From: Lachnospiraceae bacterium
Lineage (GTDB): Bacteria > Bacillota > Clostridia > Lachnospirales > Lachnospiraceae
Length of the DNA: 59,019 nt
NCBI GenBank assembly: GCA_017437065.1
Contig: JAFSBX010000101.1
Location: 1-59,019 of the forward strand
Reading direction: 5' to 3'
Part shown: piece after piece, positions 10,355 through 56,160 of the stretch
Layout of the letters: every line of letters begins with the position of its first letter
How positions within the stretch are numbered: the stretch's first letter is position 1
Position numbers and translations under genes: made by a program
The notes under the pieces: model-generated
Database searches by the model: none
What the model was told of the DNA's origin: nothing
The model's input: the letters and a program-made list of their open reading frames with translations, nothing else

Positions 10355-10374
10355 TGTGCTCACATATACCAAAA

Positions 10375-10410
10375 TGAGAGAAATATAACATATCTGCTAT
10401 ACTTCTCTCA
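10375..10410 (-). terminator. Terminator after the chemoreceptor, probable end of the rhamnoside unit
   Basis: TGAGAGA...TCTCTCA hairpin followed on minus by TTTT, 47 nt past the stop of the chemoreceptor gene. Its outer stem matches the hairpin at 9445-9482. The T-run is short, so it may be leaky. Confidence 0.55.
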
Positions 10411-10456
10411 CATAAATTGACTTCCTTATACCTTACCTGACTCTTCACCGTTTTAC

Positions 10457-12220
10457 TCATTCAATTATAAATGCATCTGAAATTTCTTTCATGCTTTGAG
10501 AAGTTTTCAAATTTCTTTCAGCCTCTTCATTAACTTCTTCAACTACATGACTTAACTCAACTACATTTTCGGTTGTCATGGTGATTCCCTGTGCTCTTTC
10601 TTCAATTGAACATGATATGTCTTTAATACTTTCTACAACCATAACCATTTCATGACTCAAATGATTTATTTTCCCTGAAATGCTGTTTATCATATTTCCT
10701 ACTTCATAAGCATCTTCATTATAACGTCCGGACAGCATTTCAAATCCTTTGTAATCTTCCAGCACATCATCATTTATAAACTGAATCATTTCTGCTGCTT
10801 TATCCGATAACTCAGTAACTGATTTAATTACCTGTTCATTCAAAGCCTGAATAGCATTCGCATTATCTTTACTATCATCTGCCAACTTTCTGATTTCATC
10901 TGCCACAACAGCAAATCCCTTTCCGGCTTCTCCCGCTCGGGCTGCCTCAATTGCAGCATTTAATGCTAATAAATTAGTCTGATTCGCTATGTTTAATATA
11001 GCATCTGTAAACTCACCAATTTTTACTACACTTTTACATTCCTCTATGCTCTGTGCCAAAGAAGCTTTCATCTCACTTGCCATATAAATGGTTTTATTTT
11101 GTCCATCCAGTGTTCTTTTAGAAATGTACGATGCTCGTTCTTTGAAACTATCTGTAAACTCTATTCCTTTCTTTATTTCGTCAGCGATGGCCTTTGTATC
11201 CTCATCCACTTCATTTGTTTTACGCATAATCTGAGTAGTCACCGCCGCAATTTCTTCTGTACCTGCTGAAATTTCTTCCATAACAGCTGATATATTAAGA
11301 ATCTTACTGTTCGCCTGATCAATTTGCTCACCGATTAATTTAGCAGAGCTTTGTACAGCATTTGCATTATTTTGAATCTGACTAATAATCCAACGAAATG
11401 TCTTAAGCAATTTATTCTCATTCTCTAACATCTGCCCGATTTCATCATTAAATCCTTTAGGAAGAACTTCCGTCAAATCTCCATGTCCATTTTCCATATC
11501 TACAGCAATTTTTCTTATCTTTTTACTTGCATTGTTAACAGGTTTAATAATAGTAATATAAATAACCACCAGAACCAGAACACTTACCACCGTAAAAATA
11601 ACAATAATATTGATGACAAGTTGGTATACTCTTGTAACACTTTTATCAACTTTTTTTCCTGCCTCATTTACTGCTGTATCAATGACACTATCAAGCTGAT
11701 TACATACTTTTTCCTGTGCAAGAATAACTGCCAGTAGTTCTCCACCTAATATTTCTTTTGCCTTTAGAATTCCTTCTTCTTTTCGTGCAGTACTGCAAGC
11801 CACAATCTGTTTCACTAATTGCTGATTTCCCTTCTTATATGCATTGAAAGCGGTCTCCAATTCCGGATTTTTGGCAGTAATACACAATTGCTCCATTGTC
11901 TGCATAAGCTCAGATACTTGTCCACTTTCCATCTCAAGAAGCCCATACATATCTCCTGCTATTACCAACTCTTCATCCGTACTTCCAGCTAGAATATTAG
12001 CATACTTCTGCATGGTTTCTACTTTTTTACTTATAGTTCCATATGTTTTTTCAATCTGAAGATATGTATCACTTACATTTTTTGCAGCGGTATTAATATT
12101 ATCTACCATTACCTTCATATAAAGCATGCTAAACAGCATTAGTACAAGCAACACTGCCAACATTCCTGTTATTTTTACCCCTATAGAAATGCCTTTTTTC
12201 TTTTTTTCCTTCATAATCAT
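10457..12220 (-). CDS. Methyl-accepting chemotaxis protein
   Basis: A membrane chemoreceptor signalling to CheA/CheW. Basic N-terminus, TM1 (about 14-34), an all-helical extracellular domain of about 165 residues (four-helix-bundle type, no Cache fold seen), TM2 (about 205-228), HAMP, then the coiled signalling domain with the hairpin-tip block [19 protein letters not shown]. No C-terminal receptor-methylation pentapeptide is seen. The start is ambiguous: a GTG at 12223 overlaps the AAAGG site, and ATGs at 12220 and 12214 follow it by 4 and 10 nt. It begins only 31 nt after the fucO stop with no terminator between, so it is probably the last gene of the rhamnoside operon. The ligand is unknown. 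Confidence 0.9.
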
Positions 12221-12251
12221 CACACCTTTCTATATAAGAGCTGCTCACAAT

Positions 12252-13400
12252 TTAGAGCAATGATTCGTATAAAGCTACAATATCTTTAACACTTGTCTCT
12301 TTCGGGTTTCCCGGTCTGCATGCATCATCATATGCAGACTGAGCAAGAAACGGAATATCCTCTTTTTTAACTATTTCTTTTAAATCTGCCGGAATACCTA
12401 CGTCCTGTGACAGCTTTCTTACAGCTTGAACTGCCGCTTTTCTGTATTCCTCTTGTGTCATACTCTCAGTACCTTCTACTCCCATTGCCTGAGCGATATA
12501 CTTATACTTATCTCCGGTTGCTTCTGCATTGTATTCCATAACCGTCGGAAGAATAATTGCATTAGCTACACCGTGTGGGGTGTCATACAAAGCTCCGAGA
12601 GGATGTGCCATAGAATGAACAATCCCAAGTCCTACATTTGAAAATCCCATACCTGCCACATATTGCCCCAATGCCATATCTGATCTTCCTTCCGGCGTAT
12701 TATTCACTGCTCCGCGAAGAGAACGTGCTATAATCTCAATAGCTTTTAAATGAAACATATCGGACAATTCCCATGCACCCGCTGTAATATACCCTTCTAT
12801 TGCATGAGTAAGCGCATCCATTCCTGTTGCTGCCGTCAATCCTTTTGGCATAGTAGACATCATATCCGGATCCACAAAAGCTACTACCGGAATATCTTTT
12901 GGATCTACACAAACCATTTTTCTGTTTTTTTCTACGTCGGTTATCACATAATTAATAGTTACTTCCGCTGCCGTTCCTGCTGTAGTTGGTACTGCAAAAA
13001 TCGGAACTGACTTATTTTTTGTTGCTGCTACTCCTTCTAAACTTCTGATATCTCCAAACTCAGGATTAGCAATTACAATACCGATTCCTTTCGCCGTATC
13101 CATGGACGAACCGCCACCAATTGCAATCAGATAATCAGCCCCTGCTTTTTTGAAAGCTTCCACACCTGTCTGTACATTCTCAATAGTCGGATTTGCTTTG
13201 ATATTGGAATAAATTTCATAGTCCAGACTTGCTTCGTCCAGAATATCCGTAACTTTTTTTGTCACACCGAATCGGATTAAATCAGGATCAGAACAAAGTA
13301 ATGCTTTCTGAAATCCTCTTCCCCTTGCCTCCGTAACAATTTCTTTCATTGCTCCAGAACCATGATAAGATGTTTCATTCAAAATAAATCTGTTTGCCAT
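12252..13400 (-). CDS. fucO: Lactaldehyde reductase (iron-containing alcohol dehydrogenase)
   Basis: A 382-residue cytosolic group III alcohol dehydrogenase reducing L-lactaldehyde to 1,2-propanediol with NADH. It carries the nucleotide loop GGGSSMDTAKG, PTTAGTAAEVT, and the metal-site blocks DALTHAIEGY and HSMAHPLGALYDTPHG. Length matches E. coli FucO. The start is the ATG at 13398-13400 after GGAGGG with 5-nt spacing; the longer frame to 13427 lacks a site. It lies 10 nt after rhaD, which fits disposal of the lactaldehyde made by the aldolase. Confidence 0.92.
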   Translation of the reverse strand: MANRFILNETSYHGSGAMKEIVTEARGRGFQKALLCSDPDLIRFGVTKKVTDILDEASLDYEIYSNIKANPTIENVQTGVEAFKKAGADYLIAIGGGSSMDTAKGIGIVIANPEFGDIRSLEGVAATKNKSVPIFAVPTTAGTAAEVTINYVITDVEKNRKMVCVDPKDIPVVAFVDPDMMSTMPKGLTAATGMDALTHAIEGYITAGAWELSDMFHLKAIEIIARSLRGAVNNTPEGRSDMALGQYVAGMGFSNVGLGIVHSMAHPLGALYDTPHGVANAIILPTVMEYNAEATGDKYKYIAQAMGVEGTESMTQEEYRKAAVQAVRKLSQDVGIPADLKEIVKKEDIPFLAQSAYDDACRPGNPKETSVKDIVALYESLL

Positions 13401-13410
13401 AATTTCCCTC

Positions 13411-14241
13411 CTATTTTTCTTTTTCAAATAAGAATTTTTCCGGTAAAATTACTTTAAAATCTTTTGCCAAATTTCGGAACATATCCGGTGTAATCGTCTG
13501 TCTTTTCTGCGGCTGCATGGATAACATTTTTACTAAAATTTCCGCTGATTTTTCTACCGTGTGCATTAGCCCAAAAGTTAAATCAAAATCTTCACCTGTA
13601 GCAAACAATCCATGGTGTGCCCAAACTGCTACATCATACTCCTTCATCAGTTTACTTGTTTCTACTGCAATTTCTCTTCCTCCCGGAACCATCCAAGGCA
13701 CTACCCCAACTCCTGCCGGAAATACAACCGGACATTCCGTTGCCATTTCCCACAATTCCCTTGTAAAGGTTTCGTCATTCAATGGCAAAACAAATGTCAA
13801 AGCAATCAGATTTGTTGTATGCGCGTGATATACCACTCTGTATTTTCCATTTGTGACCTGCTTTTTTACTTCATGATTCATCAGATGAGACGGAAGTTCA
13901 CTTGTAGGTCTGCCTCCGTTCACAAGCCCCCATACAATACGATAATTTTCTCCCTTGTTATCCAATTCAATCATGCATATAGAATCTTCCGGCTTTAATA
14001 TCACATTACGGAAATATTTACCGCTCCCTGTTACCAGGAAAAATTCTCCCGCCAAATCCGGTACCGTTGTACCAATTGACTGCCATTCTTTTTCTACAAA
14101 ACTTTCTCTTACTTCTTCAACCTCCTCCGGTTTTACACGATAGGACAAGTTTCCTCCGTTTCTTTCATGCCATCCCTGTTCCCATCCGTCGTTCGCCATA
14201 CGAATAAATCCCTGTACAAATTCTGCTTCTAAAAACTGCAT
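13411..14241 (-). CDS. rhaD: Rhamnulose-1-phosphate aldolase
   Basis: A 276-residue class II (zinc) aldolase cleaving L-rhamnulose-1-phosphate to DHAP and L-lactaldehyde. It shows HERNGGNLSYR near the N-terminus, VTGSGKYFRN, the metal-ligand block YHAHTTNLIALTF and WAHHGLFATG. The start is the ATG at 14239-14241, with GAGGG 7 nt upstream. The in-frame extension to 14364 overlaps rhaA and is rejected. Third of the rhaB-rhaA-rhaD-fucO run. Confidence 0.95.
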   Translation of the reverse strand: MQFLEAEFVQGFIRMANDGWEQGWHERNGGNLSYRVKPEEVEEVRESFVEKEWQSIGTTVPDLAGEFFLVTGSGKYFRNVILKPEDSICMIELDNKGENYRIVWGLVNGGRPTSELPSHLMNHEVKKQVTNGKYRVVYHAHTTNLIALTFVLPLNDETFTRELWEMATECPVVFPAGVGVVPWMVPGGREIAVETSKLMKEYDVAVWAHHGLFATGEDFDLTFGLMHTVEKSAEILVKMLSMQPQKRQTITPDMFRNLAKDFKVILPEKFLFEKEK

Positions 14242-14257
14242 CTTATTTCCCTCTTTC

Positions 14258-15517
14258 TTATCTATTACATAAAACTTCTTTTTCATATTTTTCAATTTCC
14301 GCAAACCACTCTCCATCACAAGGCACATTACATTGTCTGCAATACTCTGCCCAAACATCACCAAATGGATAAGTTTTGATTTCTTCCTGTCTTACCATTA
14401 ATTCTGTAAGACGATTTTCGTCCTGCATTTTTTTCCAGTCCTTATTCGGCGTACACAATGCGGATAGCATTGCCTTCTGCCAGTTTCTAAATCCTACCGT
14501 CCATGCTGAAATACGGTTGATTCCTGCATCAAAATAATCCAATGCCATATGTACTCTGTTCAAAGCATCATTACGGACAATTTCCTTTGCCATCTCTCTT
14601 GTTTCATCATCAAATAACACTACATGGTCACTGTCCCAACGAACCGGTCTGGTAATATGAAGTGCAATTTCAGGATAAAAACATAAAAGTGCCGGAATTT
14701 TATCGGAAACTACTTCTGTCGGATGATAATGTCCATTATCCATAAGTGGCATACATTTCTCTCTATGTTCTGCTGCAAAGCTTAATGTAAACTCTGCAGA
14801 ACCTACAGTATAAGACTCTACACCAATTCCAAAAACCTTAGATTCTACACAAGGTTTTACCATCTTAAAATCATATGGCTCTTCCAAAATTTTTTCTATA
14901 GATTCCCTATACCTTTGTCTTGGTCCCATACGGTCTGCCGGAATATCCTTAAAACCGTCTCCTGTCCATATATTCATCACACACGGAATTCCGGTTTCCT
15001 TCGCAAAATAATTTGCAATACGTACACACGCTCTTCCATGCTCAATCCAAAATTCTCTTGTCTCTTGATCCGGACTTGAAAGTGTAAGACCATCTTTTAC
15101 CTTGTCATGTGAAAAGAAAGTAGGATTAAAATCAATTCCTATATTATGTAATTTTGCAAATTCTACCCACTTTTCAAAATGCTTTGGCTCCAGTTTATCT
15201 CTGTCCACCTTTTCTCCCTCTTTAAAGATTGCATAGCAGGCATGGAGATTTAACTTTACTTTTCCCGGACACAGCGAAATGACTTTTTCCATATCCTTCA
15301 TCAGTTCTTCAGGTGTTCTCGCTCTTCCCGGATAATTTCCTGTTGTCTGAATTCCTCCTGTTAATGGTCCATCATGGTCAAATCCAATTACATCATCCCC
15401 CTGCCAGCAATGGAGAGACACCGGCACCTCCTTTAATATTTGTATTGCCTGTTCAGTATCTACTCCAATTTGGGCATACATATTTTTCGCATCTTCATAT
15501 CTCTGCTGAATTGTCAT
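14258..15517 (-). CDS. rhaA: L-rhamnose isomerase
   Basis: A 419-residue metal-dependent aldose-ketose isomerase (TIM barrel) turning L-rhamnose into L-rhamnulose. Family features include VSLHCWQGDDVIGFD near residue 34, NLHACYA, GIDFNPTFFSH and LMDNGHYHPTEVV, containing the metal-binding Glu/Asp/His residues. Length equals that of E. coli RhaA. GGAGG stands 8 nt before the ATG; 12 nt separate it from rhaB. Confidence 0.96.
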   Translation of the reverse strand: MTIQQRYEDAKNMYAQIGVDTEQAIQILKEVPVSLHCWQGDDVIGFDHDGPLTGGIQTTGNYPGRARTPEELMKDMEKVISLCPGKVKLNLHACYAIFKEGEKVDRDKLEPKHFEKWVEFAKLHNIGIDFNPTFFSHDKVKDGLTLSSPDQETREFWIEHGRACVRIANYFAKETGIPCVMNIWTGDGFKDIPADRMGPRQRYRESIEKILEEPYDFKMVKPCVESKVFGIGVESYTVGSAEFTLSFAAEHREKCMPLMDNGHYHPTEVVSDKIPALLCFYPEIALHITRPVRWDSDHVVLFDDETREMAKEIVRNDALNRVHMALDYFDAGINRISAWTVGFRNWQKAMLSALCTPNKDWKKMQDENRLTELMVRQEEIKTYPFGDVWAEYCRQCNVPCDGEWFAEIEKYEKEVLCNR

Positions 15518-15529
15518 TTTTTTATCCTC

Positions 15530-16924
15530 CTAATATTCATTTATTTCAAATGAATTAAAAATACATTCTCTCGCATCTTCCACATTAGTAAGAACACCAT
15601 CTGTCATCATCTGTGCTATAATGTTTCCTGTTGCAGTTGCTTCCGATGGTCCCGCATATACTGTTTTACCGGTCTCTTTTTTCGTCAGCTGGTTTAGATA
15701 TCGCGCATTAGCTCCTCCACCAATCACATAAATACAATCATATTTTTCTTCCGTAACCATTTCAATTTCTTTCAGTGTCTTTGCATAACACTTTGCCAGA
15801 CTATTATAGATAACGGCAGCTATTTGTGCTATCCCTTCCGGAACCTGCTGTCCAGTCTCTTCACATGCCCTCTGTACCTCTCGCACCATACTCTTTGGCG
15901 CAAGAAATCGCTCTTCGTTACAATCTACTATAGATGCAATATCTTCCATAGATGCTTTTGTACAAATTTCTTCAAATCCTAAATCTTCTGCAATCTCTTT
16001 TTTCACAGACTGTATCATCCACAATCCCATAATATTTTTTAGAAAACGGAAACGATATTCATATCCACCTTCATTTGTGAAATTAAGCTGTCTGCTTTGT
16101 TCTGTACAATTCGCCTTTCGTAACTCCGTTCCCATAAGAGACCACGTCCCTGAACTGATATACAGCACGTTCTTTTTTGTAGTAGGTACTGCCAACACAG
16201 CAGATGCCGTATCATGAGTCGGTGGTAAAACAACCTGGCAACTATATCCGATTTCATCTTCCATCTCCTTTGTCAGATTTCCAATCTTTGTACCTGCTTT
16301 TCGGATATTTTGAAAAATCTCTAATGGATACCCCAGTTTCATAATCAGATTTCTGTCCCAGTCCTTTGTAGTAGGATTTACCAATTGCATTGTTGTTGCA
16401 TTTGTATACTCCGTTGCTTTAACACCTGATAACAAAAAATGAAAATAATCCGGAATCATTAATAATGCTTTTGCTTTCTGTAATTGTTCCGGTGCATTTG
16501 TCTTAATTGCCATAAGCTGATAAATAGAATTAAATATTTGTTTTTGTATTCCCGTTCTTGCATACAGTTCTTCTTCTGAAATACATTCATAAACCTTTTG
16601 ATCCATTCCCTTAGTACGACTGTCTCTATATGCAACCGTATCTCCTATAACACAATCTTGTTCATCAAGGAGAACAAAATCCACTGCCCATGTGTCAATT
16701 CCCACACTAACCGGTATTTTATTTAATTGTGCACACTTCTTCATTCCAGTTTTAATTTCTTCAAACAGCCTTTGCAAATCCCAACATAAATGACCATTTT
16801 TTTCTATGACTCCGTTAGAGAAACGATATATTTCTTCCAACACCAGTTTCCCTTTTACTTTCTGTGCTAAAATATGTCTTCCACTGGAAGCTCCTATATC
16901 AATTGCTAAATAATAAGGTCCCAT
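15530..16924 (-). CDS. rhaB: Rhamnulokinase
   Basis: A 464-residue FGGY-family kinase phosphorylating L-rhamnulose at O1. N-terminal AIDIGASSGR phosphate loop, GIDTWAVDFVLLD, the PPTHDTASAVLAVP block and C-terminal VIGGGANARYLNQLT. The ATG follows AAAGG by 4 nt, within one base of the upstream GGDEF gene stop, so the two are translationally close. Pathway context (rhaA, rhaD downstream) supports rhamnulose over other FGGY substrates. Confidence 0.95.
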   Translation of the reverse strand: MGPYYLAIDIGASSGRHILAQKVKGKLVLEEIYRFSNGVIEKNGHLCWDLQRLFEEIKTGMKKCAQLNKIPVSVGIDTWAVDFVLLDEQDCVIGDTVAYRDSRTKGMDQKVYECISEEELYARTGIQKQIFNSIYQLMAIKTNAPEQLQKAKALLMIPDYFHFLLSGVKATEYTNATTMQLVNPTTKDWDRNLIMKLGYPLEIFQNIRKAGTKIGNLTKEMEDEIGYSCQVVLPPTHDTASAVLAVPTTKKNVLYISSGTWSLMGTELRKANCTEQSRQLNFTNEGGYEYRFRFLKNIMGLWMIQSVKKEIAEDLGFEEICTKASMEDIASIVDCNEERFLAPKSMVREVQRACEETGQQVPEGIAQIAAVIYNSLAKCYAKTLKEIEMVTEEKYDCIYVIGGGANARYLNQLTKKETGKTVYAGPSEATATGNIIAQMMTDGVLTNVEDARECIFNSFEINEY

Positions 16925-16925
16925 A

Positions 16926-18815
16926 TTACCTTTTCGCCTTTCTTTTCATTTCATACATTTCCTTATCCGCCTGTTCCAACAATACTTCCAAACTAAAATC
17001 TTCTGTCACTTCTGACAAATAATGACCAATACTTACATCCATTATGTATGGTTTGTCCTTCTCTTTTCTGATATCAATTACTTCTTTTTTTATCCTGTCT
17101 ATCATTTCTAAATAGGTCTCTTTTTTCTTGTAACATTGAAGTATTACAAATTCGTCTCCTCCGTATCGCATAACAATTCCTATCTCGCCGCAATTTTTTT
17201 GTAATACTTGTGCCACACTCTTAATATAAAAATCACCTTCTTCGTGTCCGTAAGAATCATTTACTGTCTTTAATTTGTCTATATCAATAAACAATAACAA
17301 TGCCGGAAACTTCTCTTTTCTACATATTCCAATAACCTCTTCTGCTTTCTGATAAAAACCGGTGCGATTTAGTACTCCTGTCATGCTGTCACAAATCCAC
17401 ATTTTATTAAGCTTTTCTATCATGGACTGCATCAACATTTGTTTTCTGATATTCTCCAAACCATTTCCAAGACTTGTAATCCAAGACTGGAACTGTATTG
17501 TTTCCATCGGAAAATTGCTGTCACCTACTACACAATATCCCATATTATGCAGTCTGAAATGAATCGGCATAATAACAGCTACAACCCCTTTTGCAGACTT
17601 ATAAAAACTTTTCGGAAGTAAATCCTTTGTTTTTATCTGTTCCGGTGTATGAAATTTTCCTTTCGTATAAGCAATCTCGACATTTACATTTTCCGTATAG
17701 TTCTCATTTTCCTGATTTACTATCCGATAACTTCCATCGATAAGTTCTATCTGTTCCGCCGGTTGTTTCTCTTCACAAAGGCAGAGATAAAAGTAAGGAA
17801 ATTTTAATTTCACTATATACATTTTCAGTTTGTCAATAAATTCTGATAAAGTACTGATTTCATTTAAATCTGCCGACATGGCACTTAATATTTCTGCCCA
17901 ATAGATATTGTCGCTTTTTTCTTTTGTTACTTTTCTTTTAAACTCTTTTATATCTTCTGTTGACCGGTGTCTGCACCCGCAACTTTCCGTAAACTTATAG
18001 TTTACCCGAAATCTGCGTTCTTCCGCACTTAAACCACCTGTCATTAATTCTTTACACGCAGTATATCCTATCTCGTAAATCGGCTTCCTGATACTGGTAA
18101 TTCTCGGCTCATGATAACGTGCCTCTTTCGAATCATCAAACCCGGTTACTACTACCTCTTCCGGTATACGTATGCCCATCTCCATTAATTCTTCTATAGC
18201 ACCAATTGCCATATAGTCATTAGCACATACAACCGCTTCCGGCACTTTTGCATGTTCTTTTATGTAGCGACGTAGAACTTGTCTTCCACTATCTGTCCAA
18301 AAATTTCCATGTTTTATGCAGAAATCTTCCTCTTTTTTTAACTGCAACTTTTCCATACATTTCAAAAAACCTCTTTCTCTTTCATTACTTTCCAAATTTT
18401 CCTTAGGTCCTGAAATGTATAAAATCCTTTTGCACTCATGACAAGTTACAATATGTTCTGCCATATCATACATTGCTTTTTCATTATCTACTTCAAAGCT
18501 GACAATATTTTGCATTTTCGCATCTATGGCAACCGTAGGAATATGTAATTTTTTCAGTTTTTTCTCCAGTTCTTTTACAACTTTTATATTTTGAATTGTG
18601 TTTGGTGCAATAATAATACCATCATAAGCACTGAAATCCGGCAGATTATATATCTGAAATTCACCTTTATTATGATTATTTACTTTATAAATATCTCCGC
18701 CACATGTAAAAACAAATACATTTGCCTCATTCTCTTTTGCACAATCCGTAATCCCCGCTACTAACTTTCTTTGACTGTCATACAAAAGCCCACCAATTAA
18801 AACTGCTATATTCAC
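16926..18815 (-). CDS. LacI-type sugar-sensor domain fused to a GGDEF diguanylate cyclase
   Basis: A 629-residue protein with no signal peptide or membrane segment, so probably cytosolic. Residues 1-265 are a type-1 periplasmic-binding fold as in LacI regulators (YISGPKENLESNERERGF, VVCANDYMAIGA, VVVTGFDDS) but start directly at the first beta strand: there is no helix-turn-helix. A linker with CGC follows. Residues about 300-450 are GAF-like by position and pattern. The C-terminal domain is an intact diguanylate cyclase: DSMTGVLNR, FIDIDKLKTVND, and GGDEF at 552-556. No RxxD inhibitory site precedes it. The start is a GTG after AAAGGAG. Placed between GH78 and rhaB, it probably senses rhamnose or a pathway sugar and makes c-di-GMP; ligand and activity are inferred. 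Confidence 0.88.
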   Translation of the reverse strand: MNIAVLIGGLLYDSQRKLVAGITDCAKENEANVFVFTCGGDIYKVNNHNKGEFQIYNLPDFSAYDGIIIAPNTIQNIKVVKELEKKLKKLHIPTVAIDAKMQNIVSFEVDNEKAMYDMAEHIVTCHECKRILYISGPKENLESNERERGFLKCMEKLQLKKEEDFCIKHGNFWTDSGRQVLRRYIKEHAKVPEAVVCANDYMAIGAIEELMEMGIRIPEEVVVTGFDDSKEARYHEPRITSIRKPIYEIGYTACKELMTGGLSAEERRFRVNYKFTESCGCRHRSTEDIKEFKRKVTKEKSDNIYWAEILSAMSADLNEISTLSEFIDKLKMYIVKLKFPYFYLCLCEEKQPAEQIELIDGSYRIVNQENENYTENVNVEIAYTKGKFHTPEQIKTKDLLPKSFYKSAKGVVAVIMPIHFRLHNMGYCVVGDSNFPMETIQFQSWITSLGNGLENIRKQMLMQSMIEKLNKMWICDSMTGVLNRTGFYQKAEEVIGICRKEKFPALLLFIDIDKLKTVNDSYGHEEGDFYIKSVAQVLQKNCGEIGIVMRYGGDEFVILQCYKKKETYLEMIDRIKKEVIDIRKEKDKPYIMDVSIGHYLSEVTEDFSLEVLLEQADKEMYEMKRKAKR

Positions 18816-18833
18816 ACGCTTCTCCTTTATACC

Positions 18834-21356: not shown

Positions 21357-21375
21357 TGGCAGTCTCCTACCTTCC

Positions 21376-23061: not shown

Positions 23062-23090
23062 ACTATCCTCCGTTTATCTCTTTTTAAAAA

Positions 23091-23143
23091 CGGTCAAAGT
23101 ACTTCTTCCTTGAATCATACAGATTCATTTATTACTTTGACCG
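23091..23143 (-). terminator. Intercistronic terminator-like hairpin inside the rhamnoside unit
   Basis: CGGTCAAAGTA (23091-23101) pairs perfectly with TACTTTGACCG (23133-23143); the loop holds a smaller TGAATC/GATTCA hairpin. On minus a TTTTT run follows, 30 nt before the GH3 ATG. It would reduce read-through from the transporter and beta-PGM half into the enzyme half, or act as a processing site. Confidence 0.7.
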
Positions 23144-23149
23144 CTTCGT

Positions 23150-23782
23150 TTATATATTCAATAAATCACTGAACGTTTTTAAAGGGTAGGTTACCAGCTC
23201 GCTATCAGCTGCTTCTCCTAAACCGGCACTTTTAAATCCTCCGTTATGTGCTGCAAGAATTCCTGCTTTTGCATCCTCTACTACAAGACACTTGGATTCT
23301 TCCAAACCTAAAAATTCTGCCGCCTTTATAAATACCTCCGGATCCGGTTTGGATCTGGAAATATTCGTTCCATCACTAATCGCATCAAAGTAATCGCCCA
23401 ACCCAAGCTGCCCCAATATAAATTTTGCATTTTTACTGGAAGAACCGATTGCCAGCTTTTTCCCCTGTGCCCGTAATGTATCCAGTGTATTTTTTACTTC
23501 CTCTGTTAAGTCCTTTTCTGACATTTGTTTTAAAAGCTCTTTATAAATATTATTTTTTTCCTCTGCGAGCTTTTCTTTTTTTTCTTCACATAGGCTGCCC
23601 TCATACCGCTCCAGTATGATTTCCAGACTTTCCATACGGCTCACTCCCCGCAATCTGTTATTGATAATCTCATCAAAATACACGCCTAAGTTGTCTGCCA
23701 TTTGTTTCCATGCTATATAATGATATTTATCCGTAGAACAAATGACACCGTCCAAATCGAAAATAACTGCCTTAAATTCCAT
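23150..23782 (-). CDS. pgmB: Beta-phosphoglucomutase-like HAD hydrolase
   Basis: A 210-residue HAD protein: FDLDGVIC (nucleophile Asp at 9 and acid/base Asp at 11), the cap motif RGVSRMESLE typical of beta-PGM, GSSSKNA, SKPDPEVF and VVEDAKAGI. Beta-PGM converts beta-glucose-1-phosphate to glucose-6-phosphate after a phosphorolysis step. GGAGG is 5 nt before the ATG, and the gene sits 19 nt after the second permease. No classical disaccharide phosphorylase (GH65, GH94) is in the window; the GH3 next door is the candidate supplier. A phosphatase role on other sugar phosphates is not excluded. Confidence 0.8.
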   Translation of the reverse strand: MEFKAVIFDLDGVICSTDKYHYIAWKQMADNLGVYFDEIINNRLRGVSRMESLEIILERYEGSLCEEKKEKLAEEKNNIYKELLKQMSEKDLTEEVKNTLDTLRAQGKKLAIGSSSKNAKFILGQLGLGDYFDAISDGTNISRSKPDPEVFIKAAEFLGLEESKCLVVEDAKAGILAAHNGGFKSAGLGEAADSELVTYPLKTFSDLLNI

Positions 23783-23801
23783 TCTTACCTCCTATTCCCG
23801 C

Positions 23802-24767
23802 TTAATTTCTTTGAAACAGCTTCTTTAATTTACCTTCATTATTTAAATAAATTAGGAAACCTACCAAAATTAATGCTGTTGTAATCTGCTGAATAGAAGA
23901 ATCTACGTCTAATCTTGCATACATAAGCGAAATCAACGCTGTTGTCACTGCACCAAGTACATATCCGATTCTTTCATTACAAAATCTTCCAATAAATCCA
24001 CCAATGAACATCGGAAGGAATGCTGTAAACATAACTCCGATAGAACCAAAATTTAATGACATCTGAATGTTTCCTGTGTTAGTTGCACTGATAAATCCAA
24101 CTATCCCCATCAACCCTCCGGTAATAGCATAACAGCCAATCGCATTTCCCACTTCTTTAATACCTGTATTTACAGATACTTTCTGTCCTGACATTAACGC
24201 TTTATAGTTATAACCAAACTTCGTATAATCAAATAAAAGAATAATAACTATCAATCCTACAATAATAAGAATCGAATAATTCAAAACACTCGGGAAACTT
24301 GTAAGTTCTGTATTCGCCACAAAGGATACACCATATCCGTCTGTAATCGCAAATGCAAGACCTTCATAAAATAATGTAATTCCTAATGAAACAATAATTG
24401 GTGGTATTTTAACAATGACATATACCATACCCGATATCGTTCCTAGAACGATACCACTTACTAAAGAAATAATTAGCATAACCGGAGTCGTCAATCCTGT
24501 ATCAATGCATATTTGTGATGCAATAATTGAGGATACAAGGGAGATAGAACCAATGGAAAAGTCAAATCTTCCCGAGTTCAGATTAATGGATAATGCAAAA
24601 GTAGTAAGCATAACCGATGTTACTGACCGAAAGAACGCTATCCAGTTTCCCTGAGTTTCAAATAACAACACACCTTTAGATTCACACAATACTAACATAA
24701 TAAGCAAAGTAACCGCAGGGATTGTTCCTATTCCTAAAATTTTTGTTATAAGCTTTCTGCCTCTCAT
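23802..24767 (-). CDS. Sugar ABC transporter permease (RbsC-type), second copy
   Basis: A 321-residue permease with about nine to ten membrane helices and the BPD_transp_2 pattern (NLNSGRFDFSIGSI, PPIIVSLGITLFYEGLAF). It differs clearly in sequence from the other permease at 26177, so the transporter probably uses a permease heterodimer, not the RbsC homodimer. Ribosome site weak (AAAGG about 11 nt before the ATG). It follows the binding lipoprotein and precedes pgmB. Confidence 0.88.
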   Translation of the reverse strand: MRGRKLITKILGIGTIPAVTLLIMLVLCESKGVLLFETQGNWIAFFRSVTSVMLTTFALSINLNSGRFDFSIGSISLVSSIIASQICIDTGLTTPVMLIISLVSGIVLGTISGMVYVIVKIPPIIVSLGITLFYEGLAFAITDGYGVSFVANTELTSFPSVLNYSILIIVGLIVIILLFDYTKFGYNYKALMSGQKVSVNTGIKEVGNAIGCYAITGGLMGIVGFISATNTGNIQMSLNFGSIGVMFTAFLPMFIGGFIGRFCNERIGYVLGAVTTALISLMYARLDVDSSIQQITTALILVGFLIYLNNEGKLKKLFQRN

Positions 24768-24816
24768 AATTAACCATACCTTTCCATTGGTTCTTATTTA
24801 ATAACTACTATGAAAT

Positions 24817-26100
24817 CTACTGCATCGCTTTGATTTCATCAAAACTGTATTTACTTACAAAATCTGAAAATGTTGCATAATCTGCTCCTAATAAAGTATC
24901 TAACATAGCTTTTGTATAAGCCGGAGCTTCTGTTGAACTGTCAATTGCATAATATTCAGAGAACTGATCGTATGATGTTGCAATCCAATAACCCTGATCC
25001 AATGCTAAGGCATTTCCTTCTTCTGTACGAATCGGCGCACCTAATGTTGCACTGTAAGTTGCTGCAAAGATAGGTCCGATACTTGCAGAAAACTTACCTG
25101 ACAGGTAATCTAACATACCTGCTTCCATTGCTTCGCCATATGCACTTGCATACGCATCTACACTGGCAATCTTAACATCTGTTCCCTGTACACTTGTTCC
25201 AAAGAAATCAGAACCATTACCTACTGCAAGAATAACTTCAAGCCCTTCTGTCTGAGCCATCTGTGCACATTTTGCAAACCATGCATCATCCATGTCATAT
25301 CCGCCTACATAACCTACAAGGTTAATTGTTCCTATTGCACCTGTCTCAACAGTTGCTGTTTCAAAAATCTTTGCAATAATTCCTTCTTTATCTGTTGCAC
25401 CCTGATAATTAGCACCTTCACCACCTGCTTCTACCATAGCTGTCAGCATACCTGCTGCACGATAAATATGCATTTCTGTATAATAAGGAACCGCACCACC
25501 AAAAATTGCAAAATTAGTTTTACCCTGATCCAGATAATACTTAGCCATATCATAGCCTGTCTGATACTCAACATCTAAAGATGGTCCGATTGCACCAATA
25601 TAATATTCATTTGTTTTTACAGATTCATATTCTTCTGTTGTTAAAGTACCTGTAGCAACTGCATAGTATACATTTGCATCTGCACACTGCTTCAGCTGTG
25701 CCATACGGTCAAAAGACGAGAATGAAATTACTGCTTTACAATTGTTTGTAATGAATGTATCAATTGCAGATTTTTCCGCTGCCGCATCTGCAAGCTCATC
25801 AGAGTACATAAGTTCTACATTGTAATTGTTTGCAATATACTCTTTGTAATAACTCTGGAATGCTAAGGATTCTGCTGTTGTAGAATCAGATACTAAAACT
25901 CCGATTTTTACACTCTTACTCATATCCAGATTTGCCGCCGGGCTGCTTTCTGATGTCTCTGTCTGTGCAGACTCGCCATTGTTTTCTGCTGTCTGCGTAG
26001 TTGCTGTTGCTTCTTTTGTCTCTTCTTTAGTGCTTCCACATCCAACAAGAGTTGATACACTAAGTGCAAGACAAAGTACCATTGCTAATACCTTTTTCAT
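24817..26100 (-). CDS. Sugar ABC transporter substrate-binding lipoprotein
   Basis: A 427-residue exported lipoprotein. Signal with lipobox LVGC (Cys21), then a Thr/Ser/Glu-rich linker (about 23-58) and a type-1 periplasmic-binding fold beginning SVKIGVLVSDST. A C-terminal stretch (GYWIATSYDQF) resembles family ligand-cleft segments. It captures the substrate, inferred to be a rhamnosylated sugar from the linked enzymes. Strong GGAGGG site. It lies between the two permease genes, an order seen in two-permease clusters. Confidence 0.9.
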   Translation of the reverse strand: MKKVLAMVLCLALSVSTLVGCGSTKEETKEATATTQTAENNGESAQTETSESSPAANLDMSKSVKIGVLVSDSTTAESLAFQSYYKEYIANNYNVELMYSDELADAAAEKSAIDTFITNNCKAVISFSSFDRMAQLKQCADANVYYAVATGTLTTEEYESVKTNEYYIGAIGPSLDVEYQTGYDMAKYYLDQGKTNFAIFGGAVPYYTEMHIYRAAGMLTAMVEAGGEGANYQGATDKEGIIAKIFETATVETGAIGTINLVGYVGGYDMDDAWFAKCAQMAQTEGLEVILAVGNGSDFFGTSVQGTDVKIASVDAYASAYGEAMEAGMLDYLSGKFSASIGPIFAATYSATLGAPIRTEEGNALALDQGYWIATSYDQFSEYYAIDSSTEAPAYTKAMLDTLLGADYATFSDFVSKYSFDEIKAMQ

Positions 26101-26176
26101 GTTTTACCCTCCTAAAAAATTTAGATTAAAATAGTTTATGTATAAAGCCCTCATGTATATATAAGGCCTGATACCA

Positions 26177-27142
26177 TTATCTCGGTAGCATTTTACCTCT
26201 CTGATTAAATGTTGCTACAAATACTACAATGATAAAGATTACTGCTTTTACCATCTGTCCGATTCCTGAATTTAAATTCAGAATATTCATAATCTGACCT
26301 AAAAAGCTCATCGAAAATGCTCCAATTACTGCTGCTGTAATTTTACTTCTCGCACCACCGGATACAGGCATTCCACCAAACACAATTGCAATAATAACAT
26401 CCATACCTACACTGGAAGCTGTATTCTTTGTAAGTGTCGGTGCATAAATCGTTGTTATAAAAGCTCCTAAACCTACTCCAATTCCTGCCATCACAAATGC
26501 CACAATTGCCATTTTTTTATCTGAAATACCTGTCAGTTTTGCACAAACCGGATTACCGCCCACCATCTTCTGCTTCCGACCAATTTGGGTAAAATTGAAT
26601 ACAAACATACACACTAAGAAAAATGCTACTAATACAAATACCTTAAATCCAATATTGTCAAAGGCTTCTACTGCCGCTGCCGGTACTGCAATCTCAGATC
26701 CGGTTCCATTTGCTTTAATCAATACAAGTACCAATGCATTTAGAAAACTCAGCATCGCAATCGTTGTAACAAACACCGGCAAATTAAACACCGACGCCAG
26801 TACTGAATTAAACAAAGAAATCAATACGGCAATTCCTACATTGACCAAAAGCATACATAGGATACTTTCTGTTTTGTTATAAGTTATCGCCCCTAACAAA
26901 GCACTGACTGCCACGCTGGCGCCAAGACTGATATCAAAGGAACCCAGAGTATAAATAAATATGGCTCCCGTTGCTACAATTGCCACAACAACCGACTGAT
27001 TGATAACAGCTTTCATTCCATACGCGATATTGATATCTTTTACTGTTCCCATAATCATAAATACGGCATATAGGAGCAGTAATCCCACAATTGGAGCCAG
27101 ATTCATAATCTGTTGCCTAATATTTATTTTTTTCTTTTCCAT
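26177..27142 (-). CDS. Sugar ABC transporter permease (RbsC-type), first copy
   Basis: A 321-residue inner-membrane permease with about nine helices and the BPD_transp_2 signature (GSFDISLGASVAVSALLG, then FGGMPVSGGARSKI). AGGAGG precedes the ATG. It is separated from the ATPase gene by 17 nt and from the binding protein by 76 nt. Pairs with the permease at 23802. Confidence 0.9.
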   Translation of the reverse strand: MEKKKINIRQQIMNLAPIVGLLLLYAVFMIMGTVKDINIAYGMKAVINQSVVVAIVATGAIFIYTLGSFDISLGASVAVSALLGAITYNKTESILCMLLVNVGIAVLISLFNSVLASVFNLPVFVTTIAMLSFLNALVLVLIKANGTGSEIAVPAAAVEAFDNIGFKVFVLVAFFLVCMFVFNFTQIGRKQKMVGGNPVCAKLTGISDKKMAIVAFVMAGIGVGLGAFITTIYAPTLTKNTASSVGMDVIIAIVFGGMPVSGGARSKITAAVIGAFSMSFLGQIMNILNLNSGIGQMVKAVIFIIVVFVATFNQRGKMLPR

Positions 27143-27159
27143 ATTTACCTCCTGCCGTT

Positions 27160-28662
27160 TTATATCATATACTTAATAATGTCTGACTCGCCAAGTTCAC
27201 TGCTTCTCTGAAATTCTTTTTCAATTTTTCCATCTTTCATAACAATCAACCGATCAGCCATACCAAGTAGTTCTGCCATTTCTTCCGAAATGATGACGAT
27301 AGATTTTCCTTCCTTTTTCATCTGATACATAAGTTGGTACATCGCCTGCTTTACACCGATGTCTACACCTCTTGTCGGACAATCCAAAATCAGAATTTCA
27401 CTTCCTCGTCCAATCCACTTTCCGAAAACAACTTTTTGTTTATTTCCACCCGAAAGTGCTGATACATATTGATTCATTTCCTGACACTTAATACTCAAAT
27501 CTTCAATCTGCTTCTGCACATATTTTCTTTCTTTACCTGGAAGAACCAAAAATTTCTTTACCGCAAATTCGTCCAATCCACCTACCGCAATGTTATCTTT
27601 GATACTTGCATTCAGACAAAGTGACTCCACATCTCTATCCTTTGCCACATAGCCAATTCGATTTTTCATGGCATGTGCTTCGTTTTTTAATTCCTGTCCA
27701 CGGCAAATCACTTTACCCTTTTCCATTGTTTCTGCCCCGAACAGCACCTTTCCTAACGTATGCATACCACAATGTGAAAGTCCACCAATTCCTAAAATCT
27801 CACCTTTATGTAACTGAAAATTGAAGTCTACTAACTGATTCCCCAAATTTCCATCTTTAATTTCTAACACTACTTCCTCATCATAACTTCCGTCATAATC
27901 ACTTCTGTAATAGTCTCCCTGAAGTTCCCGTCCTATCATGCTGGTTTTTATCAGTTCTTCATCAAATTCTTCCTTTGCAAAAGTAATAATAATCTTTCCG
28001 TCACGAAGTACTGTAAGTGAATCGCAGACATTCATAATTTCATCTAAATCATGAGATATAAATACAACTGCTTTATTTTCATCCTTCATTTTGTTCATAA
28101 TCTTGTAAATAATATCTCGTCCTATTTGAGAAAGTGCCGTGGTTGTTTCATCCACTACAAGCATTTTAGGATTTTTACTCATAACTTTTGCTATTTCAAT
28201 TAATTTTCTATCCTGTAAATCCAACATTCCGGTTATCATGTTCGGATCAATATGCTTCGCACCGATACCATCCAGTATTGCCTTTGCTTCTTTCATCATT
28301 TGTTTCCGATTGATAAGGCTACCTTTTTTAAAGCGACTTACTTCACCAAGGAAAATATTCTCTGCAACCGTAATTCCCGGAACCGTACCGGTTTCCTGTA
28401 CAATCATTCCGATACCTTGATTTAAAGCATCTATCATGCTGCCCGGTTTCCAGTTCTTTCCTTCATACAACATTTCTCCTTCGTCTGCTTTCTGCATCCC
28501 AGAAATAATCGAAGTAACTGTCGATTTTCCGGAACCATTCTCTCCAATCAATCCTAAAATCTCCCCAGTTCTTACAGTAATACTTACATCATTCAATGCT
28601 ATCGTAGAACCAAACCGCTTATTCATATGCTTTACTTCCACGAGAACTTCTTTCTTTTCCAT
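27160..28662 (-). CDS. Sugar ABC transporter ATPase (RbsA/MglA-type, two ATP domains)
   Basis: A 500-residue double ATP-binding protein driving uptake. First domain: Walker A GENGSGKST, degenerate signature LLDLQDRKLIEIAK and Walker B MLVVDETTTAL. The second domain lacks a canonical Walker A (GGLSHCGMHTLGK), typical of the degenerate RbsA half, and has signature ALSGGNKQKVVF with LILDCPTRGVD. The start is the ATG at 28660-28662 after GGAAAG; the extension to 28701 is rejected. It follows the HPr-like gene by 64 nt. Confidence 0.92.
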   Translation of the reverse strand: MEKKEVLVEVKHMNKRFGSTIALNDVSITVRTGEILGLIGENGSGKSTVTSIISGMQKADEGEMLYEGKNWKPGSMIDALNQGIGMIVQETGTVPGITVAENIFLGEVSRFKKGSLINRKQMMKEAKAILDGIGAKHIDPNMITGMLDLQDRKLIEIAKVMSKNPKMLVVDETTTALSQIGRDIIYKIMNKMKDENKAVVFISHDLDEIMNVCDSLTVLRDGKIIITFAKEEFDEELIKTSMIGRELQGDYYRSDYDGSYDEEVVLEIKDGNLGNQLVDFNFQLHKGEILGIGGLSHCGMHTLGKVLFGAETMEKGKVICRGQELKNEAHAMKNRIGYVAKDRDVESLCLNASIKDNIAVGGLDEFAVKKFLVLPGKERKYVQKQIEDLSIKCQEMNQYVSALSGGNKQKVVFGKWIGRGSEILILDCPTRGVDIGVKQAMYQLMYQMKKEGKSIVIISEEMAELLGMADRLIVMKDGKIEKEFQRSSELGESDIIKYMI

Positions 28663-28726
28663 AAGCTTTCCTTTCCCTGCATACCGCAAAACCAACTGCA
28701 ATATTGCATCAATCCGTCAATTGAAA

Positions 28727-28960
28727 TTATTGTTTACCCATAAATTCTATAATTTTAAGAGTGTCTTCCTGTTCATATGCTATCAATTCCATTTCCGGAA
28801 TTTCTGAACTGTTAAGTACACCAGCCAAAGCAACATATTGACACAATTTAGATTTTAAATTCAGTCTGTCACCTTCTCCCGTTATCAGTTCTACTTTTCC
28901 TTTACAACTGTCTATCATTTGAAAAAGTGCATTAACATTTTTTACATTTTGAATTTTCAT
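28727..28960 (-). CDS. HPr-like small protein without the catalytic His
   Basis: 77 residues. The middle (KVELITGEGDRLNLKSKL followed by CQYVALAG) lines up with the HPr segment around regulatory Ser46 (VNLKSIMGVMSL), and the C-terminal EMELIAYEQED matches the closing strand and helix. The N-terminus is shorter, and the position of the phosphocarrier His15 is Val/Asn here. It cannot be a normal phosphocarrier; it could bind HPr-kinase, CcpA or an ABC component. This is my alignment by eye. The start is the ATG with GAGAGG 5 nt upstream; the GTG 6 nt earlier is less likely. It is the first gene of the operon. Confidence 0.6.
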   Translation of the reverse strand: MKIQNVKNVNALFQMIDSCKGKVELITGEGDRLNLKSKLCQYVALAGVLNSSEIPEMELIAYEQEDTLKIIEFMGKQ

Positions 28961-29022
28961 GTACACCTCTCTATTTTACCTCTATATATTTTGCTTTGTT
29001 GCTTTTATTTTGCTATAATGCA

Positions 29023-29051
29023 ATTATATAGAAATCAAACCCAAGTCACAA
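29023..29051 (-). promoter_or_regulatory. Promoter of the rhamnoside operon
   Basis: On minus, TTGTGA (29046-29051), 17-bp spacer, TATAAT (29023-29028), ending 63 bp upstream of the HPr-like gene. Inverted AATTG/CAATT half-sites lie just upstream and could serve the AraC regulator. Confidence 0.7.
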
Positions 29052-29073
29052 TTGTTTGTTTTAATCAATTCTA

Positions 29074-29102
29074 TTGACTTTTTTTAAACTGAATATTAAA
29101 AT
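29074..29102 (+). promoter_or_regulatory. Promoter of the araC-type regulator gene
   Basis: TTGACT (29074-29079), 17-bp spacer, TAAAAT (29097-29102), facing away from the operon promoter. A partly palindromic ATTAAAATCAT...ATGATACTTTTTAAT stretch overlaps its -10 and start region. Confidence 0.75.
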
Positions 29103-29160
29103 CATCATATTAAAATGATACTTTTTAATATTTTCGAAAGGAGATTCAAATACTTTTTAT

Positions 29161-30234
29161 TTGGATTTGAAACAGATTATGGATTTATCTACTTTGCAGA
29201 AGATGCTCTATGAATTAAACAGCGAAGAATTATTTTACCAAAAGTATTATTATGCCAAACAACAGGAATATTCCTATAAAAAATTTCTTGCTACTTTAGA
29301 CATGGATTTTGTATTGAAACACTTCCTAATTATTCCAGAATTTCCAGAAACAGTTCCGCCTGTTTATGAAGATTATTGGATTTTTGATGTTGGACAACCC
29401 ATCACCGCCCTCAAACACAATTGCTATACACCAGCAATTGTTCATGATCATACCTTTTTTGAATTAACGTATGTATATGATGGCACCTGTGAACAAAACA
29501 TCAATGAACAAATTGTTAAATTGCGTACCGGTGACTTTTTGGTAATGCCTCCCGGGGTCAGACACTCCATTTCTGTATTTGATAAAAGTATTATTATACA
29601 AATTCCGGTAAAGAAAGCTACATTACAATATATTTTTTTCAATTTTCTAAGAACAGATAATATTTTATCCATGTTCTTTATTAACAGTATTTATGCACAA
29701 CACATCAACGACTATATTATTTTTCATTCCGGTAATGATTTCGAAATAAAAAATGCTATTGCCTCTCTATTACTGGAAAGTATAAATCGTGAAGATTATT
29801 GGCAAACTATAATGGTTAATACAACCATGAATATATTCAGTCTGTTATTACGAAACTATGAAAATAGTGTAGAACTTCCTTCCATTGTGAAAAAAACCGA
29901 CGTACAGCGTTTTGGTCTGGTACGCTTTATTCAGGAAAACTATACAGATATAACTTTAAATAAAATTGCCGAAAAATTTCACTACACACCAGAATATACT
30001 TCTAAGCTGATTAAAGAAACTACGGGGATGAATTTTAAACAGATTTTACAAAAAATAAGAATTGAACGAGCAGAATTTTTACTGCTAGATACTTCACTTA
30101 CTGTTACAAATGTAGGAATTGAAGTAGGATATGACAATACTGAACACTTTATCCGAACTTTCAAAAAAATAAACGGAATGACTCCAAGTGCTTACCGTAA
30201 AAAATATGGTGACACAAAGGCAACAGGTTTATAA
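29161..30234 (+). CDS. AraC-family regulator with cupin sensor domain
   Basis: A 357-residue DNA-binding regulator. An N-terminal cupin-like sensor (about 75-160, with DHTFFELTYV and GDFLVMPPGVRHSI) precedes the AraC double helix-turn-helix at about 255-350 (ITLNKIAEKFHYTPEYTSKL and VTNVGIEVGYDNTEHFIRTF). GMTPSAYRKKYG closes the domain. The only plus gene in the locus, transcribed away from the operon, so it likely activates it in response to rhamnose. The start is uncertain: GGAG at 29140 is 17 nt from the TTG at 29161 and no ATG stands closer until 29179. Its own terminator overlaps the stop. Confidence 0.85.
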   Translation: MDLKQIMDLSTLQKMLYELNSEELFYQKYYYAKQQEYSYKKFLATLDMDFVLKHFLIIPEFPETVPPVYEDYWIFDVGQPITALKHNCYTPAIVHDHTFFELTYVYDGTCEQNINEQIVKLRTGDFLVMPPGVRHSISVFDKSIIIQIPVKKATLQYIFFNFLRTDNILSMFFINSIYAQHINDYIIFHSGNDFEIKNAIASLLLESINREDYWQTIMVNTTMNIFSLLLRNYENSVELPSIVKKTDVQRFGLVRFIQENYTDITLNKIAEKFHYTPEYTSKLIKETTGMNFKQILQKIRIERAEFLLLDTSLTVTNVGIEVGYDNTEHFIRTFKKINGMTPSAYRKKYGDTKATGL

Positions 30235-32542: not shown

Positions 32543-32645
32543 TTTTTCCTCCATTCCGGCGGTTCTTCCGCTCGTTGAACAAAATTATTATTTTCTACTA
32601 TTTTGATTTTAGTTCTTTATTAACTTTATCTGAAATTTGTCCGTC

Positions 32646-51888: not shown

Positions 51889-51906
51889 AATAAAACCACG
51901 CCTCTC

Positions 51907-52965: not shown

Positions 52966-52966
52966 T

Positions 52967-56153: not shown

Positions 56154-56160
56154 TTTATCA

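Follow-up and report, generated by a model that had tools for sequence, protein, structure and literature searches.

A rhamnoside catabolic locus of a Lachnospiraceae bacterium that also encodes a diguanylate cyclase, a chemoreceptor and an HPr-fold protein

Why should a locus for the breakdown of one sugar also encode proteins of second messenger signaling, carbon control and motility? The question is raised by a 59,019 nt stretch of DNA from a Lachnospiraceae bacterium (assembly GCA_017437065.1, contig JAFSBX010000101.1; the whole stretch is called the window and its genome G000), in which 14 genes of a complete L-rhamnose pathway, two glycoside-cleaving enzymes, an importer, a diguanylate cyclase (DGC), a methyl-accepting chemotaxis protein (MCP) and an HPr-fold protein follow one another on the minus strand from position 28960 to 10457. 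On balance, and with modest confidence, we read the run as an inducible operon for a rhamnosyl-beta-glucoside with its own behavioral sensors for approaching a substrate and settling on it, in which the HPr-like part is optional. As much of the gene set is shared with related species, the cell may tie the consumption of one sugar to swimming towards that sugar and then staying. The novelty lies in how the parts are combined and in how specific the combination is, and not in the single parts; catabolic operons are a known kind, as are chemoreceptors and LacI-type GGDEF proteins. A literature search, from which subscription literature was mostly absent, found no paper on the combination of a DGC, an MCP and rha genes. 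Also new here, as predicted from sequences and models, are a GH3 enzyme of the phosphorylase type, which explains the beta-phosphoglucomutase (beta-PGM) beside it, and an HPr-fold protein in which the His15 loop is missing and a serine is retained where HPr has Ser46. The features are listed below, with the genes of the run in their 5' to 3' order.

28727..28960 (-): HPr-fold protein, first gene of the run, no His15 loop, Ser39 as the Ser46 equivalent (predicted structure)
27160..28662 (-): rbsA, RbsA-like sugar ABC importer ATPase with two ABC_tran stretches (Pfam; start chosen by us)
26177..27142 (-): importer permease 1 (Pfam BPD_transp_2)
24817..26100 (-): importer substrate-binding protein with a lipoprotein-like N-terminus (weak PDB match only)
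23802..24767 (-): importer permease 2 (Pfam BPD_transp_2)
23150..23782 (-): beta-PGM (TIGR01990, 237 bits against a cut-off of 189)
21376..23061 (-): GH3 of the beta-glucoside phosphorylase type (BglP/BglX), dyad motif KHFPGDGVDERDQH
18834..21356 (-): GH78 alpha-L-rhamnosidase, no signal peptide by eye (Pfam)
16926..18815 (-): DGC, LacI-type effector domain without helix-turn-helix, joined to a GGDEF domain with intact MRYGGDEF (Pfam)
15530..16924 (-): rhaB, rhamnulokinase (NCBIfam)
14258..15517 (-): rhaA, L-rhamnose isomerase (NCBIfam)
13411..14241 (-): rhaD, rhamnulose-1-phosphate aldolase (NCBIfam; start chosen by us)
12252..13400 (-): fucO, lactaldehyde reductase (NCBIfam; start chosen by us)
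10457..12223 (-): MCP, membrane chemoreceptor with a helical sensor and an MCP signaling domain (Pfam, predicted structure)
29161..30234 (+): AraC-family regulator, divergent, with a cupin-type ligand domain (Pfam)
29023..29051 (-): sigma-70-like promoter TTGTGA-17-TATAAT ahead of the HPr-like gene (pattern match)
29073..29130 (-): AraC-type direct-repeat operator, copies at 29130-29115 and 29089-29073
10374..10411 (-): terminator-like hairpin of 17 pairs, 3' of the MCP gene (pattern match only)

A preliminary description, made from the letters alone, had placed a leftward gene run between 28960 and 10457 with a divergent AraC gene and most gaps under 80 nt. The minus strand does carry all 14 genes at these coordinates, and the 13 gaps, in the direction of the run, measure 64, 17, 76, 49, 19, 88, 19, 18, 1, 12, 16, 10 and 28 nt, so that 12 of 13 are below 80 nt, with a maximum of 88 nt; the values assume our choice of ATG starts for rbsA (28662), rhaD (14241) and fucO (13400). 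Its labels for the rhamnose pathway, GH78, importer, beta-PGM, sensor/GGDEF protein and chemoreceptor are upheld by Pfam or NCBIfam matches, and its GH3 label holds at the level of the family, the phosphorylase type having been missed. In particular, Pfam matches are clear for GH78 (five of the rhamnosidase type), GH3, both permeases, the ABC ATPase, Peripla_BP_3 and GGDEF, MCPsignal and AraC. Both rhaA and fucO score above their NCBIfam cut-offs; rhaB passes TIGR02627 (547 against 528) and misses the cut-off of PRK10640, and rhaD passes PRK03634 (325.5 against 170) and misses TIGR02624 (326.8 against 401). The transporter is a CUT2-type importer, whose binding protein has no Pfam match and a weak PDB match to ribose-binding protein (E = 0.0072). 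With rhaA, rhaB and rhaD in a single gene run beside an AraC-type regulator, the locus is, by its predicted gene content, a rhamnose catabolic operon.

The gene set was also compared with relatives. Two comparison sets were used, the first from a binding-protein search of 397 family genomes and the second from a GH3 alignment scan of genome contigs, of which the best 80 of 262 loci were kept; the two overlap (L206 = G372, L188 = G057, L162 = G223, L177 = G009, L187 = G280, L176 = G116, L186 = G389 and L175 = G186), and the 10-kb flanks cut off some rha genes. Among 18 loci with the ATPase, the binding protein, GH3 and a long GH78, 14 have the DGC, 16 an MCP (14 by score, plus those of L160 and L161, which are soluble and were confirmed by Pfam), 12 at least one rha gene, 10 all three, and one the HPr-like gene. 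In contrast, 17 loci with the same transporter and no long GH78 contain no DGC, three MCPs (those of L178 and L179 are of another type) and one HPr-like gene; the remaining 45 loci, which have other transporters or are cut by a contig end, contain three DGCs, three MCPs and four HPr-like genes. The DGC is therefore found in 14/18 loci with the long GH78 versus 0/17 without it (Fisher p = 1.6e-6, uncorrected for relatedness). Three loci that lack a long GH78 (L113, L120 and L116) each encode a short GH78-type protein. The preliminary description had proposed a neighborhood search of relatives beforehand as a check on the association, which is conserved, with DGC, MCP and rha genes together in 10 of the 18 loci of the same type. 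Because much of the gene set recurs in other species, it reflects more than chance.

Further, the arrangement within these loci is tight. In the window and in L160, L161, L171, L172, L173 and L206, the rha genes continue the run; where they are neighbors, the DGC and MCP genes are separated by -4 to 47 nt (12 loci), and where rhaB comes next, it begins -8 to 45 nt from the MCP gene (6 loci). The GH78 and DGC genes share 4 nt in L170, L171, L172 and L206; in six other loci the overlap is 10 to 80 nt, and the called starts there may be too early. L188 and L205 have the order GH3-bPGM-DGC-GH78-bPGM-MCP, with the DGC still inside.

The DGC itself consists of a LacI-type effector domain, with PurR and CcpA among its closest relatives of solved structure, fused to a GGDEF domain (Pfam E = 1.1e-33), with neither a helix-turn-helix (HTH) nor a signal peptide. 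The active site reads MRYGGDEF in 17 of 18 aligned rows and GGDEY in L116; the intact GG(D/E)EF motif suggests diguanylate cyclase activity. When compared with 18 other GGDEF proteins that have periplasmic-binding-protein-type sensors (PBP-GGDEFs), the locus DGCs form a single clade (support 100/96; its 18 rows represent 17 distinct genes, L112 being L151). This clade and its intact active site point to an old, locus-specific cyclase and not a random neighbor. In a plasmid search with the DGC, limited to 5000 records, none of the matches listed covers 80% of the protein in one place, and all are below 60% identity. As a separate observation, the near relative L161 encodes at the position of the window's DGC (L161:14239-15690) a lipoprotein-like protein of 483 amino acids that has no Pfam match.

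These data bear on the possibility that the neighborhood has no function, and that DGC and MCP genes, being abundant, came by drift to lie in a catabolic island that species exchange as one block. The window's genome has 35 MCP and 25 GGDEF matches from which such genes could come, two genomes of the same genus (G001 and G002) have no strong match to the binding protein, which implies that the locus is easily moved or lost, and many of the sampled loci are closely related. Drift is nevertheless an improbable account: it does not lead one to expect the DGC in 14 of 18 loci of the GH78 type and in none of 17 with the same transporter and no long GH78, nor its inside position in both gene orders (GH3-GH78-DGC and GH3-bPGM-DGC-GH78), the very short gaps, or a DGC clade that is specific to the locus.

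The catabolic genes indicate which sugar is at stake. The GH3 enzyme matches the beta-glucoside phosphorylase BglX/BglP (PDB 5vqd_A) over residues 6-556 of 561 (E = 1.1e-142), and its His-Asp dyad motif KHFPGDGxDExDQH is present in the window and in all nine relatives inspected, with D198 and H200 invariant across the 10 rows. According to the accessible text of PMC8950772, GH3 members of this kind are retaining phosphorylases that yield beta-glycosyl phosphates, only two have been characterized, and a His-Asp acid/base dyad in place of Glu or Asp is the rule for the phosphorylase type. The window's GH3 thus resembles BglP/BglX and Nag3 in its full-length match to BglX and in its dyad; unlike BglP, which in that text comes from a metagenomic activity screen (PMC8950772), it has a genomic setting that suggests a role. 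Together, these features suggest a beta-glucoside phosphorylase that would produce beta-glucose-1-phosphate, as backed by the neighboring beta-PGM, whose presence in the operon would then be accounted for. The locus would also supply such GH3 phosphorylases with a physiological setting of importer, rhamnosidase and beta-PGM.

In the proposed pathway, the importer would take up the glycoside and the cytosolic GH78 would release L-rhamnose, which RhaA, RhaB, RhaD and FucO would convert to dihydroxyacetone phosphate (DHAP) and propanediol; the GH3 enzyme would then cleave the leftover beta-glucoside with phosphate to beta-glucose-1-phosphate, and beta-PGM would convert this to glucose-6-phosphate. 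By eye, GH78 and GH3 have no signal peptide, so cleavage is probably intracellular. A rhamnosylated beta-glucoside, such as a flavonoid rutinoside or an oligosaccharide with rhamnose, is the most likely substrate; if it were only free rutinose, glucose would be left over and a phosphorylase would not be needed. In the accessible text of PMC7779528, Lachnospiraceae respond to rutin and the enzyme that cleaves the beta-glucoside is left unidentified; the locus is a candidate route for gut Lachnospiraceae with this response.

How the run is controlled can be read, with due caution, from the region between the AraC gene and its first gene. In the AraC-rbsA gaps of relatives (15 were inspected; L161 and L173 had no anchor), two direct repeats of the type TATCAAAAAAAGTCAAT can be seen by eye about 41 nt apart, followed by a TTG.AA/TATAAT-like promoter. 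The window shows the same arrangement, with the HPr-like gene inserted between the promoter and rbsA; the upstream operator copy was located by counting in the sequence. A 17-mer operator matrix, trained on 10 relatives and without the window, places its top site in the entire 59 kb at 29073 (score 15.0; the runner-up scores 12.5), and in L160, which was also not in training, its top site lies in the same gap (16.3). Promoter-pattern matches over the whole region are not in excess (62 versus 71.7 in shuffles), so it is the position of the promoter that counts; terminator-like hairpins number 11 versus 8.0 in shuffles. The run is probably one transcription unit, and AraC would activate the single promoter ahead of 28960 in the presence of rhamnose or a rhamnoside. 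Separately, the AraC protein of G057 (cupin and HTH domains), encoded at the divergent position, is fused to a GH39 glycosidase domain (L158:3535-6024). Known bacterial rhamnose regulons (RhaR/RhaS, RhmR; PMC3870299) are alike in their AraC-type control in some lineages and in bringing a rhamnosidase and a transporter under joint regulation with the rha genes. They are unlike the present locus, which has a DGC and an MCP within the unit, in that the terms "GGDEF" and "methyl-accepting" are absent from the main text of that source, whose figure legend names no Clostridia-type lineage.

The chemoreceptor is the last gene of the run. Its signaling domain is clear (PF00015, E = 1.3e-29), and its AlphaFold model is helical over residues 11-240 (predicted local distance difference test, pLDDT, of 77-93 by block; the remainder is poorly predicted), which is consistent with a sensor formed by a four-helix bundle between two membrane helices. 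When 29 MCPs were searched with the sensor region (residues 36-215), it matched 16 of the 17 other locus MCPs (all except that of L120) and none of 12 other MCPs. The window's MCP and 12 from similar loci form a clade (support 96/99) in a tree from which 13 MCP-like rows (fragments, soluble types and duplicates) had been dropped beforehand and to which one full-length row was added; a single clade of all 18 locus MCPs is unsupported, as the tree needs two changes. A frame of 284 amino acids 3' of the DGC in L166 was considered as an MCP and rejected. Soluble MCPs of 276-278 amino acids (L160:16201-17031, L161:15760-16596 and L037:3926-4759; assigned by Pfam in L160 and L161) occur in place of or beside the membrane type; their conserved N-terminal part has no Pfam match (QICLCDREKTIGVWY in L160 and L161).

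Candidate partners of the receptor are encoded elsewhere in the genome. G000 has four flagellin, four CheW and five PilZ matches; one PilZ match (C60:109205) lies 2.9 kb from two CheW-domain matches, one of them in a frame of 701 amino acids that is probably CheA. The presence of a DGC or MCP in the locus varies with motility genes: it is found in 20 of 38 flagellin-bearing genomes versus one of 10 without flagellin (p = 0.029; 48 of the genomes behind the 80 loci). Within a set of 12 genomes, G009 (which also belongs to the 10 without flagellin) and G273 lack flagellin, CheW and PilZ, and have neither DGC nor MCP in the stretches fetched. Under the operon reading, the chemoreceptor would guide the flagellar cell towards its substrate, the cytosolic DGC would bind the imported sugar through its LacI-type sensor and alter the level of cyclic di-GMP (c-di-GMP), most likely upward, and the PilZ protein encoded near the che genes would slow the flagella at raised c-di-GMP, so that the cell stays.

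The outputs of c-di-GMP are diverse in general, and the signaling genes could be co-transcribed while the DGC's product controls exopolysaccharide, pili or adhesion and the MCP alone handles taxis. We consider this unlikely, though not to a strong degree: in its favor are the intact GGDEF motif and the five PilZ matches in G000, of which only one is near CheW-domain genes, but an output apart from flagella sits poorly with the nine of 10 flagellin-free genomes that have neither gene in the locus, or with G009 and G273, which lack flagellin and CheW and have neither gene in the stretches fetched. Chemoreceptors in catabolic operons are known, such as NahY, where a receptor is co-encoded with the degradation of its attractant; unlike these, the window's chemoreceptor is joined with a DGC and an HPr-fold protein. 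Nutrient state is coupled to c-di-GMP in V. cholerae EIIAGlc-PdeS and P. aeruginosa RmcA (PMC8846402), which is alike; unlike the present case, where the gene of a LacI-type DGC is embedded in the operon that would degrade its presumed ligand, Peripla_BP-type sensors appear in the accessible text of that review among putative domains with no known function. There is little documentation of direct sugar input into c-di-GMP, and for one cyclase clade the locus points to a candidate ligand, rhamnose or a rhamnosyl glucoside. It also supplies a chemoreceptor to match and a putative inducible promoter, which makes the question directly testable.

The HPr-like protein raises a question of its own. 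It has no match in Pfam or NCBIfam, nor in PDB by phmmer and hmmsearch, and hhalign also failed; PF00381 is absent from the matches of 24 family members at E = 1, and a PF00381 scan of G000 omits the window's protein. Its HPr fold was settled by fold comparison alone, using the AlphaFold model, so that the preliminary label stands by structure and has no counterpart among sequence matches. In the model, a strand at residues 2-8 is followed by a helix at 11-20, the His15 loop is missing, and no His is conserved in the 24 rows. Ser39 is invariant in 24/24 rows and stands immediately before the helix at 40-49; its equivalence to Ser46 was read from topology and the NxKS motif, and not from a structural alignment. 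Having no His15, the protein cannot be an ordinary phosphocarrier of the phosphotransferase system; its role may be Crh-like, with the use of Ser46 only.

Crh is a paralogue of HPr in B. subtilis that lacks His15. The present protein is alike in having an HPr fold, no His15 and a serine at the place of Ser46; it is unlike Crh in showing no significant sequence similarity (hhalign P = 0.063) and in that the His15 loop is missing, not substituted. A local alignment to Crh scores 39 against a shuffle mean of 24.5 (3 of 500 as high), with the best path out of register, for which reason the score was not used as evidence. The same genome also encodes a Crh-like protein with Glu at the His15 place, about 4 kb from hprK, and HprK is present in nine of nine genomes tested. 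In the window and a few other loci, the HPr-fold protein would probably report the glycolytic state through phosphorylation of its Ser46 equivalent by HprK. Beside the AraC gene, at 30272-32554, the window has a glycogen-phosphorylase-like gene (by eye), with a possible link to the HPr-like protein; the title of PDB 9s8k states that E. coli HPr binds glycogen phosphorylase.

It is quite conceivable, if somewhat short of an even chance, that the HPr-like gene is a passenger, which came to lie behind the rhamnoside promoter by chance and is paralogous to a gene frequently adjacent to CvfB. The family adjoins the CvfB gene in 10 of 23 other loci (27 were considered, and four were dropped because the gene was missed in the open reading frame list), G000 has a second copy beside CvfB (L143), and the protein is found in 7 of 81 GH3-centered loci, window included, for which the tree asks about four separate arrivals. 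A passenger would not be expected as the first gene behind the shared promoter, nor to have arrived repeatedly in loci of one kind (the window, L188, L184 and the four Butyrivibrio-type loci L197-L200), which is more often than a rough estimate predicts for one to two copies per genome. A common origin of the locus proteins is unsupported, with about four changes needed and little support in the tree, and a CvfB-dnaE-pfkA neighborhood as the family's usual home was dropped after the recount, where dnaE and pfkA were also near in 5 of the 23. Separately, members of this HPr-fold family without His15 also occur at L125, L127, L129, L135, L136 and others, and the one member tried has no NCBIfam match. 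The single inducer-driven unit proposed in the preliminary description is partly supported, by its conserved gene set and by the one strong operator-like site ahead of the first gene; carbon control is its weakest part, given an HPr-like protein in 7/81 loci that has no His15.

The pairing of sensor DGC and chemoreceptor extends to other loci of the same genome. In G000, an MCP lies within 6 kb of five of seven PBP-GGDEFs, versus one of 17 other GGDEF proteins and one of 13 LacI-type proteins without GGDEF (p = 0.0009). PBP-GGDEF genes with an MCP within 3 kb are found at L031, L032, L033 and L034 (contigs C142, C139, C9 and C86), where L032 has galactose genes (epimerase, GalT and a sugar-binding protein) and L034 has a GH3 and a phosphoketolase; the pairing is thus not peculiar to rhamnose. 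A tentative generalization, somewhat less likely than not, is that in such Lachnospiraceae a portable pair wires individual sugar operons to behavior: a locus-specific chemoreceptor and a co-induced cytosolic DGC with a LacI-type sensor would form a swim-then-stay switch for each sugar, to which some loci would add an HPr-fold gauge of glycolytic state that uses Ser46 only. If so, the DGC would signal that the sugar is now inside and that the flagella should stop, with the rhamnoside operon as one case and L032 and L034 as others.

Several observations weigh against an inducible operon with its own behavioral sensors, or against its generality. Among the 18 loci of the same type, the DGC is missing in four, the MCP is missing in two (L162 and L166), the HPr-like gene is present in only one, and many are close relatives, so that the counts are not independent. 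In L163, L165, L167, L169, L183, L188 and L205, the rha genes, in the same direction, are placed upstream of AraC and separated from the transporter run. L160 and L161 have soluble MCPs that differ from the window's type, and no RxxD I-site is seen in the window's DGC. Motility genes and sensors do not always coincide: 18 of the 38 genomes with flagellin carry no DGC and no MCP at the locus, and L171, from a 2.3-Mb metagenome-assembled genome, has both, with flagellin not found. Outside G000, an MCP lies within 6 kb at only two of 13 non-rhamnose PBP-GGDEF loci (L043 and L045), so the pairing may be special to this lineage. Finally, L158 and L188 (both of G057, with a different AraC) give no site with the operator matrix, for L158 neither ahead of rbsA nor upstream of a separate rhaB in the region covered, and L205 gives only a weak one, which confines the operator to the window's subgroup.

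Two further features of the window lie outside the run. A PHP-domain gene with a weak CehA/McbA match is found at 8519-9274, about 1.2 kb downstream of the operon, and two large hybrid histidine kinases (HisKA, HATPase and receiver domains) are encoded near each other at 49759-56161.

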